From NCBI GenBank assembly GCA_017433405.1, contig JAFRHH010000078.1:1-35922 (forward strand): a stretch of 35,922 nucleotides of DNA, written 5' to 3'. Source of the DNA: Clostridia bacterium. GTDB lineage: Bacteria; Bacillota; Clostridia; Christensenellales; Aristaeellaceae. The notes below the pieces were generated by a model that made no database searches, was not told the origin of the DNA, and saw nothing but the letters and a program-made list of their open reading frames with translations. Below are positions 12,698 through 17,408 of this stretch, in pieces; within the stretch, counting starts at the first letter, position 1; each line of letters starts with the position of its first letter. Position numbers and translations under genes: made by a program.

Positions 12698-12745
12698 CGT
12701 TATCTTTTCCTGTTTCACCCTATGATCGATCACATGACGTCCGGC
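12698..12745 (-). repeat. Second, diverged copy of the hisIE 3' end before hisK
   Basis: This 48-base stretch matches 12752-12799, the last codons of hisIE, at 42 of 48 positions and in the same orientation, offset by 54. The copy would read [16 protein letters not shown] against [16 protein letters not shown] in the gene. Five of six differences are at third codon positions. It is not translated as part of hisIE, whose stop lies at 12749-12751. The hisK ribosome-binding site follows directly. Confidence 0.92.
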
Positions 12746-12748
12746 GTT

Positions 12749-13396
12749 TCAGGTCATCTTCTCCTGCTTCACCTTATGATCGATCACGTGACGTCCGGCC
12801 AGCTCCCGGTGGATATCCTCCAGGGAGATTCCGCTTTCGATCATCAGCACCATGACATGGTAGGTCAGATCCGCGATTTCGTAGATCGTTTCCTTCCGGT
12901 CCCGGTCCTTGGCGGCGATAATGACCTCCGTCGATTCCTCGCCGACCTTCTTCAGGATCTTATCCAGCCCCTTTTCGAACAGATAGGTCGTATAGGAGCC
13001 TTCCTTCTTCTCCGTCTTCCGGCCCCGGATCAGCTCCATCAGGCCCTCCAGGGAGAATTCGTGGCGCTCGTCGCTTTGCCAGAGGGGCCTGTGGAAGCAG
13101 CTTTCCTTCCCCGTATGGCAGGCGGGGCCGTCCTTTTCCACCTTCACCAGGAGCGCGTCCCCGTCGCAGTCCGCGGCGATCGAGACGATATGCTGATAGT
13201 TTCCGCTGGTTTCCCCCTTCAGCCACAGCGCCTGGCGGCTCCGGCTCCAGAAGCAGGTCAGGCCCTTTTCCATCGAGATGGCCAGGCTTTCCCGGTTCAT
13301 ATAGGCCAGGGTCAGCACCTTTCCGTTTTCCGCGTCCACGACGATGGCCGGGATCAGGCCGTTTTCATCAAATTTCAGTTCATCCATGCTGATCAT
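12749..13396 (-). CDS. hisIE: Bifunctional phosphoribosyl-AMP cyclohydrolase / phosphoribosyl-ATP pyrophosphatase
   Basis: The product is 215 residues, the normal length of the fusion. The HisI half carries the metal-binding cysteines and Asp residues ([15 protein letters not shown] and [11 protein letters not shown]). The HisE half carries the all-helical [14 protein letters not shown] pyrophosphatase motif. Together they do steps 2 and 3 of the pathway. ATG at 13396 follows CCGGAGG at 11 bases; a second ATG three codons on is less well placed. The 3' end is tandemly duplicated downstream. Confidence 0.95.
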
Positions 13397-13410
13397 CAGT
13401 TGTTTTTCCT

Positions 13411-13435
13411 CCGGTTTTCAGATTCGGGCGGTAAT
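13411..13435 (-). repeat. Second copy of the hisF 3' end and stop region before hisIE
   Basis: 13411-13431 repeats 13453-13473 base for base (21 of 21) in the same orientation, offset by 42; the homology runs a few bases further into the coding side. In minus-strand terms the copy reads ATT ACC GCC CGA ATC TGA then AAACCGGAGG, against ATC CCC GCC CGA ATC TGA then AAACCGGGG in the real gene end. Only the outer copy has the intact GGAGG, which serves hisIE. Confidence 0.92.
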
Positions 13436-13459
13436 GTGGGGATTTTGTTTCCCCGGTTT

Positions 13460-14218
13460 TCAGATTCGGGCGGGGATGCCCGCTTCCTTCATGCGGTTCT
13501 TCAGGTCCGCGATACTGACCTGGCCGAAGTGGAAAATCGAGGCCGCCAGGCCCGCGTCCACGCCGGGCAGGGTCTTAAACAGCGTCAGAAAATCCTCGAC
13601 GCAGCCTGCGCCGCCGCTGGCGATGACCGGCACCCGGACCGCTTCGCAGACCTTTTCCAGCATTTCCAGATCGAAGCCCTTCCGGACGCCGTCGGTATCG
13701 ATGGAGTTCACGACAACCTCCCCCGCCCCGTCCCCAACGCAGCGGCGGATCCATTCGATCGCCTCCATCCCGGTGTTCTCCCGTCCGCCTTTGGCAAAAA
13801 CGCGGAAGACGCCGTCCACCCGCTTCACGTCGACGCTCAGCACCACGCACTGGTCGCCATACAGCTTCGCGGCCTTCCCCACCAGGGAGGGATCCCGGAT
13901 GGCGCCGGAATTGACGGACACCTTATCCGCCCCGCATTTCAGCACCCGGTCAAAATCCGCCGTCGTATTGATGCCGCCGCCGACGGTCATGGGAATAAAC
14001 ACCCGGCGGGCGGTCTCCGTCAGGATATCCGTAAACAGGGCGCGCCCCTCGGCGCTGGCGGTGATATCATAGAACACCAGCTCGTCCGCGCCGCTTCGGC
14101 TGTAAGCTTCCGCCAGATCCACCGGGGACGCCACGTCTCCCAGCCGGTCAAAATTGACCCCCTTGACCACCCGGCCGTTCCGGACGTCCAGGCAGGGGAT
14201 GATACGCTTCGTAATCAT
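13460..14218 (-). CDS. hisF: Imidazole glycerol phosphate synthase cyclase subunit
   Basis: The product is 252 residues from MITKRIIPCLDVRNG. It is a (beta/alpha)8 barrel that, with HisH, makes IGP and AICAR. Catalytic Asp11 lies in PCLDVRNG and the second acid in SVDVKRVDG. The phosphate-binding loops FTDILTETARR...TVGGGI and ASGGAG are present. The frame runs much further upstream, but that part is hisA sequence out of frame. The ATG at 14218 overlaps the hisA stop as ATGA and follows GGAGG at 10 bases. Confidence 0.96.
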   Translation of the reverse strand: MITKRIIPCLDVRNGRVVKGVNFDRLGDVASPVDLAEAYSRSGADELVFYDITASAEGRALFTDILTETARRVFIPMTVGGGINTTADFDRVLKCGADKVSVNSGAIRDPSLVGKAAKLYGDQCVVLSVDVKRVDGVFRVFAKGGRENTGMEAIEWIRRCVGDGAGEVVVNSIDTDGVRKGFDLEMLEKVCEAVRVPVIASGGAGCVEDFLTLFKTLPGVDAGLAASIFHFGQVSIADLKNRMKEAGIPARI

Positions 14219-15632: not shown

Positions 15633-15661
15633 CAGAGAGCTCCTTTCGTCGGGGGAATCTT
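15632..15661 (-). repeat. Second, diverged copy of the hisB 3' end before hisH
   Basis: 15632-15661 matches 15685-15714 at 25 of 30 positions, offset 53. The copy reads KIPPTKGAL-stop against [13 protein letters not shown] in the gene. The copied ACGAAAGGAGCT contains the hisH ribosome-binding site (AAAGGAG), and the copied stop overlaps the hisH ATG as TGATG. In the real gene end the same place reads AAAGGCG, no longer a ribosome-binding site. Confidence 0.9.
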
Positions 15662-15684
15662 CACGCGGATCAACCGGGCGCACG

Positions 15685-16272
15685 TCAGAGCACGCCTTTC
15701 GTCGAGGGAATCTCCCCGGCGGCGGCGGGATCGATGGCGACCGCGGCCCGCAGGCTTCGGGCGGCGCTCTTGAAGGCGCCCTCGATAATATGATGGCTGT
15801 TCAGGCCCTCCAGCTGCTTCAGATGAAGGGTGCAGCGGGCGTTTCGCGCAAAGGCCTCAAAGAACTCCCGCACCAGCTCCGTATCAAAGGTTCCGACCTT
15901 TTCCGTCGGGATCCGGAGATCGAAGGAGAGAAAGCCCCGGCCGGAGAGGTCCACGGCGGTCAGGATCAGCGCCTCGTCCATCGGAAGCATCGCGCTGCCG
16001 TAGCGGCTGGTTCCACGCTTGTCCCCGAGGGCCCGGTCGAAGGCTTCCCCCAGGGCGATGCCGATATCCTCGACGCTGTGGTGGTCGTCGACCCAGGTGT
16101 CCCCTTTGCACGCCACCGCCAGGTCGAAGCGGCCGTGGCGGGCCAGGAGGGTCAGCATATGGTCCAGGAAGCCGACCCCCGTATGAATGTCGCTTTTTCC
16201 GCTTCCGTCCAGATCCAGCCGGATCCGGATCTCCGTTTCCCCGGTCCGGCGTTCAATCTCCGCCTGGCGCAT
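15685..16272 (-). CDS. hisB: Imidazoleglycerol-phosphate dehydratase
   Basis: The product is 195 residues, the monofunctional form. It dehydrates IGP (step 6). The two manganese-binding repeats are visible: [14 protein letters not shown] with [16 protein letters not shown], and the second half [38 protein letters not shown]. The start at 16272 follows GGAGG at 9 bases and matches the family N-terminus ([15 protein letters not shown]). Its 3' end is duplicated downstream. Confidence 0.95.
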
Positions 16273-16311
16273 TCTGATTATCCTCCATTTTTCTTCCCAC
16301 TCAGTTGTTTT

Positions 16312-16344
16312 CTTCAGGATGGTCTCCGCGGCGGATACCAGCTT
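16312..16344 (-). repeat. Second, diverged copy of the hisC 3' end before hisB
   Basis: 16312-16344 matches 16356-16388 at 30 of 33 positions, offset 44. The copy encodes [11 protein letters not shown] against [11 protein letters not shown] in HisC. It starts exactly at the hisC stop codon, so the 44-base unit is a perfect head-to-tail tandem. One difference is silent and two are conservative (A to S, A to T). The hisB ribosome-binding site TGGAGG follows about 30 bases on. Confidence 0.9.
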
Positions 16345-17408
16345 CAGCGACTCTCCTTCAGGATGGCCTCCGCGGCGGCCACCAGCTTCTCCATCTCCGC
16401 CCTGCTTCCGACGGTAATCCGGTTGTAGTCCCGGATTCGCTCGGCGGAAAAGTGGCGGATCAGGATTCTCTTTTCCCGCAGCTTCCGGTACAGCGTCTCC
16501 CCGTCCACCGCCGGATGGCGGGCAAAGAGGAAGTTCGTCCGGCTGTCCGTCAGAATGAAGCCCAGGCGTCGCAGCGCTCCCGCCGCCCATTCGCGGTTTT
16601 TCTGAATCGTCCGGCAGTTCTCCTGCGTATATTTCTCCTGGGCCAGGCAGGCGATCCCCGCCGCGGCCGTCATCCGGTTCACGCTGTAGGGATGGACGGC
16701 ATAGCGGATCGTATTCAGATCCTGAATCAGGTCCGGATTTCCGGCGGCGAAGCCCAGCCGCCCGCCGGCCAGGGATCGGGACTTGCTGAAGGTCTGGACG
16801 ACCAGGAGGTTATCGTGCTCCCGGATCAGCGGAAGGCAGCTCTCCGCGCCGAAATCCACATAGGCCTCATCCACGACGCAGATGGTATAGGGGTTCCGCT
16901 CCAGGATTCCCTCGATCTCCTTCCGCCCCAGGGCCAGCCCCGTGGGCGCGTTGGGATTGGCGATAAAGACGGTTCCCCCCGCGTGATAATAGTCCGCCGG
17001 ATCCAGGGTCAGATCCGCCTTCAGCGGGATCTCCCGGAATGGCACCCGGGCGGACTGGGCAAAAACCGGATAAAAACCGTAGGTAATATCGGCGAAGACC
17101 GCAGGCGTATGCCTGCTGCAAAAGGCCAGAAAGGCGAAGAAGAGGGCTTCATCCGAGCCGTTGGTCGCCATCAGCTCCTCCGGCTTCAGCCCCGTCGCCG
17201 CCGACAGCGCTTCCCGCAACTCCCGGCTCTCCGGATCCGAGTACAGATGAAGCCGCCGGCTTTCCCGCTCCACCGCCTCCGTCACCGCCGGATGGGGCGG
17301 AAAGGGGCTTTCATTGGTGTTCAGCTTGATATAGACCCCGTCCCGGGGCTGCTCCCCGGGCGTATAGGGATCCAGATCCGCGTACTCCTCCGAAAAAAAG
17401 CGGCTCAT
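16344..17408 (-). CDS. hisC: Histidinol-phosphate aminotransferase
   Basis: The product is 354 residues from [20 protein letters not shown]. It is a fold-type I PLP enzyme that transaminates imidazole acetol phosphate (step 7). [14 protein letters not shown] at the N-terminus, [17 protein letters not shown] and the Schiff-base lysine in [15 protein letters not shown] are in order. The frame is open eight codons upstream into a dispersed repeat; the ATG at 17408 has GAGGAGG 8 bases before it and is preferred. Confidence 0.95.

Follow-up and report, generated by a model that had tools for sequence, protein, structure and literature searches.

Tandemly duplicated gene tails at four junctions of a histidine operon and the likely separation of hisB from hisH

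Why does the end of a gene occur twice at four junctions of a single histidine operon? The question is raised by a stretch of 35,922 nucleotides from a Clostridia bacterium (assembly GCA_017433405.1, contig JAFRHH010000078.1), here called the window; its assembly, incomplete at a completeness of 89, comprises 2.53 Mb in 92 contigs, of which the window is C57. The source is described as a gut bacterium. The operon lies on the minus strand in the order hisZ-G-D-C-B-H-A-F-IE-K, as indicated by matches to NCBIfam profiles. We consider it very probable that his junctions underwent short tandem duplications, with units of 42-54 bases, in a duplication-prone lineage, and that at hisB/hisH the two copies split into a coding copy and a copy carrying the Shine-Dalgarno (SD) sequence.

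Duplicated gene tails in the his operon

An ungapped self-comparison of the minus strand placed the tail of the upstream gene twice, head to tail, at hisC/hisB (offset 44, 31/34 bases identical), hisB/hisH (offset 53, 31/38), hisF/hisIE (offset 42, 26/29) and hisIE/hisK (offset 54, 42/47). All four tail copies scored above every one of 200 spacer shuffles (p=0.005 each), which confirms the four duplicated tails and their unit lengths as given in the first-pass annotation of this DNA. Tandem Repeats Finder at score 30 detects none of the four. The divergence between the copies argues against assembly stutter, which judged from the sequence would be an unlikely source.

The outer copy had also been said to hold or abut the ribosome-binding site of the next gene. 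This holds at hisB/hisH and hisF/hisIE, where the SD lies inside the copy, and at hisIE/hisK, where four bases separate the copy from an SD-like site read from the sequence; hisC/hisB is the exception, to which we return below.

For comparison, 45 genomes of the same genus were searched, the window's own included; hisIE was found in 42, and his regions were obtained from 40 of the 41 relatives with a match. Nine junctions were measurable in 35 relatives and the window, which form the junction census, five incomplete operons being excluded. Tail likeness was tested at 87 his junctions of the relatives and the window with spacers of 15-300 bases, of which 18 gave p<0.03: the window's four, hisD/hisC of genome G044, and 13 that are short or short-period and mostly AT-rich. 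A further 80 public loci contributed 88 spaced junctions, and three of these reached a score of at least 13: hisF/hisIE of locus L240 (28/33, offset 43) and two from a record duplicating genome G008.

The hisB/hisH junction

In 33 of 37 relatives hisB and hisH are tight (gap of at most 5 bases), whereas the gap in the window is 52 and the stop and start codons do not overlap. Counted by operon, the gap is -4 to 0 in 25 and at least 15 in five, window included. The usual gap of -1 plus a unit of 53 gives the observed 52.

In the overlapping relatives the hisH SD sits within the final TKG codons of hisB. A position model for the 30 bases before the hisH ATG was built from 19 of these relatives, whose own minimum score is 32.4. 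Anchored at the ATG and without an indel, the outer copy of the window scored 31.5, and the remaining four spaced operons scored from -29 to -64. The hexamer AAAGGA occurs within the hisB tail in 30 of the 33 operons with a gap of at most 5 and in none of the five with a gap of at least 20 (Fisher p=1.1e-4, a value that is too strong because the relatives share kinship); its baseline is 27 of 513 Lys-Gly codon pairs elsewhere in the his genes.

The two copies in the window have diverged in complementary ways. The inner copy reads AAAGGC, with the SD gone and the protein kept, and the outer copy reads AAAGGAG; the glycine codon of the outer copy, GGA, is that of 31 of 37 relatives, and GGC of the inner copy that of a single one. 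The outer copy also keeps the overlapping TGATG, as the first-pass annotation had noted. In the hisB frame this copy has two replacements, S to P where 36 of 37 relatives have serine, and V to A where 24 of 37 have valine; codon -10 (E to K) lies at the repeat edge and was excluded from the substitution count. Because tight relatives carry the SD in hisB, and because the outer copy keeps SD and TGATG where the inner has lost the SD, the junction points to duplication followed by a division of labour. A tandem duplication of a tight junction, in which the inner copy would end the gene and the outer serve as leader, is strongly supported by this comparison. On our reading, the AAAGGA codons would be held in place by the SD and freed once the genes separate, and hisH translation probably depends less on that of hisB than it does in the relatives.

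The proposed course of events is as follows. Short tandem duplications would arise across his junctions in a lineage that makes them often. For hisB/hisH, comparison with relatives shows a stretch that before duplication both coded for the C-terminus of HisB and carried the SD and start region of hisH; the inner copy has since retained the coding function, and the outer copy the SD and the start. Such copies may be tolerated, as translation of the upstream gene would still terminate at the first stop and an SD and an ATG are still available in the last copy. Once the inner SD had decayed, the duplication would be locked in, because a deletion would remove the SD of hisH. This would amount to duplication, degeneration and complementation acting on a single gene junction. 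Ancestral dual function is seen at hisB/hisH only, in the AAAGGA inside hisB of those 30 of 33 tight operons, and reciprocal loss is seen there in the sequence, in the GGC of the inner copy and the two replacements, S to P and V to A, of the outer.

Other junctions, other genes and the rate of duplication

Duplications of the same kind are present at the other three junctions, which differ in what relatives tell of their past. At hisIE/hisK the gap is -8 to 0 in 35 operons and at least 15 in four, window included, and an ancestral tight junction is probable; that both of the nearest relatives are spaced (51 and 52 bases) weighs against it. An older hisIE/hisK duplication, common to the window and the relatives G003 and G022, was considered and not adopted; by eye the SD region alone matches (p=0.05 and 0.09). 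At hisC/hisB and hisF/hisIE the nearest relatives have spacers of 24-25 and 18 bases, and ancestral overlap is not established because they are already spaced. The suggested origin from tight junctions thus stands firmly at hisB/hisH, is plausible at hisIE/hisK, and is not shown at hisC/hisB and hisF/hisIE.

The outer hisIE copy, read in the hisIE frame, has K to R, M to I and a lost stop codon, and four more differences between the copies are all synonymous; at codon -14, 18 relatives have the CAT of the outer copy and 10 the CAC of the inner. The four replaced outer codons (hisB S to P and V to A, hisIE K to R and M to I) are absent from every relative at those positions. Relatives are too variable in hisC to polarise the copies, and in hisF a single edge codon differs. 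These differences bear on gene replacement, in which foreign his genes would have recombined in and left the old tails behind as outer copies. The outer copies are still coding-tail-like and some of their differences are synonymous, as that account would have it, but the changes at conserved residues are in the outer and not the inner copies, and the nearest relative of all ten his genes is G003 or G022, with G018 tied for hisIE. We regard replacement, which the first-pass annotation had raised, as highly improbable.

Tail copies were then counted in a 1.05 Mb sample of the genome at a score of at least 14, with genes called by a home-made caller whose calls outside the window had no homology check. 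They occur at 16 of 838 gene ends (15 on a stricter count, as one, L159, resembles the dispersed repeat described below) and at none in shuffles; head copies occur at 4 of 807, one being hisB/hisH. Five relatives together gave 1/847 (G001 0/186, G031 1/186, G003 0/257, G004 0/116, G018 0/102), and a sixth, G044, gave 2/89. The slippage- or duplication-prone lineage that had been among the suggested causes is thereby supported. Neither the spacers of relatives, compared for spacers lacking tail likeness, nor the rate expected by chance, both checked on samples, overturned the duplication claim. The unit is 42-62 bases long in 14 of the 16. A possible helical periodicity of unit lengths was set aside with no claim made (p=0.003 for period 10, 0.026 for 10.5 and 0.13 for 11; post hoc, n=16). 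Ku was found in none of the 45 genomes, several of them incomplete, with the control matched in one of 14 control genomes, that of B. subtilis; Ku-dependent non-homologous end joining is therefore unlikely as the source and was rejected, and slippage is taken as the default origin.

Could such a rate suffice without any function? Under pure mutation bias, duplications of 36-62 bases would be frequent, the copies neutral and his a chance hot spot. Tail copies do stand beside unrelated genes as well, and short-range repeats touching noncoding DNA are enriched: a 0.73 Mb sample gave 54 per 105 kb, 13 of them at junctions and 41 in noncoding DNA, vs 24 per 122 kb in three relatives, counts that include some copies of the dispersed repeat or tRNA genes. 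Neutrality leaves the complementary decay at hisB/hisH unaccounted for, however, and does not easily give four duplications at nine his junctions; we hold it possible but rather unlikely.

Another alternative is that selection for decoupled his translation drove and retained the duplications. The window has six of nine his gaps of at least 20 bases, the most among the 36 complete operons (0-4 in the others), and tail copies at 4/9 his junctions vs 12/829 other gene ends (p=1e-5, in a region picked for this very feature). Outside his, however, 6 of the 12 tail copies stand before an opposite-strand gene, where no ribosome start is involved, and the overlap frequency is ordinary (0.18 in the sample vs 0.15-0.24 in those of six relatives), for which a genome-wide loss of overlaps was also rejected. 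Selection as the driver appears improbable to us: it is not borne out genome-wide, and within his it may have acted. A duplication-prone lineage fits better than general decoupling selection because of these opposite-strand copies, and, joined with lock-in by complementary decay, it is the best account of the locus.

Several results weigh against that account. The excess in his (4/9) is not explained by a neutral rate, nor is it accounted for by a duplication-prone lineage with lock-in. The likely SD of hisB (16282-16286) is outside the outer copy at hisC/hisB, 25 bases further downstream. ATG-anchored likeness to overlapping relatives is absent at hisC/hisB (p=0.37) and marginal at hisIE/hisK (p=0.10). 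After the inner hisB stop the likeness to the hisH head is weak (p=0.04), and no such head vestige was found at hisF/hisIE (p=0.95) or at hisD/hisC of G044 (p=0.47). Three tight operons of the genus have no AAAGGA. In the wider and more distant set, the 80 public loci (at least four of which appear to repeat genomes already counted, one among the spaced operons), it occurs in 20 of 50 tight, 4 of 9 intermediate and none of 8 spaced operons, which leaves 30 of the 50 tight ones without it; the AAAGGA rule therefore looks looser beyond the genus. Finally, 83 junctions of the sample could be paired with orthologous junctions of the sampled relatives. Of these, 10 have a spacer of 20-199 bases in this genome and a gap of at most 5 in the relatives, and five show the reverse, though some of the starts at the 10 may be miscalled. 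Read by eye, one of the 10 spacers holds a tail duplication, that of argB, three hold the whole or part of the dispersed SD-carrying repeat, and six hold neither (argB, tyrA and atpC are presumptive names, assigned by recognising N-termini). Tail duplication is therefore not the main opening route in this genome, but one of several.

The repeat just mentioned, GTGAACTGNNGTTCACAGAGGAG, is palindromic and ends in an SD. The genome has 204 copies at up to two mismatches, and the reversed-pattern control none; 2 of 44 other genomes of the genus have single copies, and samples of six relatives have none. When up to three mismatches are allowed, the sample contains 111 copies, of which 65 precede a same-strand start by at most 40 bases, 37 of the 65 by 8-12 bases. 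The repeat, one copy of which occupies the hisD/hisC junction of the window, looks like a portable ribosome-binding site. That the lineage opens compact operons in two ways, by junction duplication and by the spread of this repeat, is an idea we hold only tentatively and think doubtful.

A second case is possible at hisD/hisC of G044 (locus L054), where a tail copy matches at 23/25 with offset 83 and the junction may have been copied twice; hisD and hisC overlap as ATGA in eight relatives. Counted from the hisD stop, TGAGCCG stands at -2, +41 and +81 around the 79-base spacer. A fourth is found within hisD, at -25, and hisD of the overlapping relatives has this word too, so not every occurrence need be a junction copy.

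Coordinates are collected in Table 1. The best NCBIfam matches of nine his genes exceed the curated cut-offs and hisZ alone falls short. Three his junctions of the window overlap (hisZ/G, G/D and A/F). At hisH/hisA a 41-base spacer has no tail copy; as read from the sequence, the end of hisH has GAGGCG and the spacer CGCCTC (15004-15032, minus strand), which could pair into a hairpin. An Rfam scan of the window at gathering scores gave no match. Elsewhere in the genome, a second cluster of four tail duplications (offsets 53, 55, 56 and 60, on both strands) lies within 20 kb (L162, G000:C53:1-20000). The his-operon spacers of G001, G007, G008, G011, G017, G027 and G031 hold tandem repeats that are rich in AT (offsets 14, 15 or 21, units near 7 bases), several of which begin at or near a stop codon.

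Table 1 Features of the his operon and dispersed repeat copies in the window.
Feature	Position	Strand	Basis or remark
hisK (HisJ-family histidinol-phosphatase)	11912..12676	-	TIGR01856, exceeds its cut-off
hisIE	12749..13396	-	NCBIfam
hisF	13460..14218	-	NCBIfam
hisA	14215..14979	-	NCBIfam
hisH	15021..15632	-	NCBIfam
hisB	15685..16272	-	NCBIfam
hisC	16344..17408	-	NCBIfam
hisD	17490..18767	-	NCBIfam
hisG	18764..19390	-	NCBIfam
hisZ	19383..20330	-	top family TIGR00443, 176.8 bits, under cut-off 271.65; also position in operon
Outer hisIE-tail copy	12699..12745	-	followed closely by the SD-like ACAGGAG of hisK (12688-12694)
Inner hisIE-tail copy	12753..12799	-	self-comparison
Outer hisF-tail copy	13403..13431	-	contains hisIE SD GGAGG (13408-13412), read from sequence
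Inner copy, hisF tail and post-stop bases	13445..13473	-	SD position reads GGGGA
Outer copy, hisB tail and hisH start	15623..15660	-	SD AAAGGAG at 15640-15646; TGATG retained
Possible decayed hisH-head vestige after inner hisB stop	15661..15684	-	weak, p=0.04
Inner hisB-tail copy, ending hisB	15676..15713	-	SD-equivalent 15693-15699 reads AAAGGCG
Outer hisC-tail copy	16312..16345	-	likely hisB SD outside copy
Inner hisC-tail copy	16356..16389	-	self-comparison
Dispersed repeat	6997-7019	-	
Dispersed repeat	17418-17440	-	upstream of hisC
Dispersed repeat	20342-20364	-	
Dispersed repeat	20430-20452	-	
Dispersed repeat	24066-24088	-	

Comparison with known systems

Overlapping co-oriented gene pairs of the ATGA and TGATG type, as described in passages of PMC6728339, carry the SD inside the upstream gene and work by termination-reinitiation. 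This is the usual hisB/hisH state of the relatives; the window differs in that the overlap is gone and SD and start are kept in a second copy. Work on the turnover of gene overlaps in bacteria (parts of PMC3843671 and PMC4161906) resembles the present case in that adjacent genes lose their overlap. Earlier published studies treated the creation of overlaps and not their loss, according to a passage of PMC4161906, and the word "duplication" does not occur in the main text of either paper. None of the open-licence titles and abstract openings surveyed describes junction tail duplication.

The loss of gene overlaps is little described, and the locus suggests a one-step route by which overlapping genes separate: duplication of the junction removes the overlap at once, with both proteins and the downstream SD intact. 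The hisB glycine codon offers a simple marker of when the SD constraint was lifted, and overlap loss becomes testable over many genomes by searching for tail copies where relatives have a tight junction.

In duplication-degeneration-complementation, two functions of one sequence are divided between two copies. The likeness at hisB/hisH is that its functions appear split in this way, and the difference lies in the unit, about 53 bases over a gene junction, and in the functions, one being coding and the other ribosome binding. Engineered refactoring or decompression of overlapping phage genes (T7, phiX174) reportedly duplicates the overlap to give every element a separate copy. The hisB/hisH junction resembles these designs in its duplicated overlap, and it is a natural case, in a bacterial operon.

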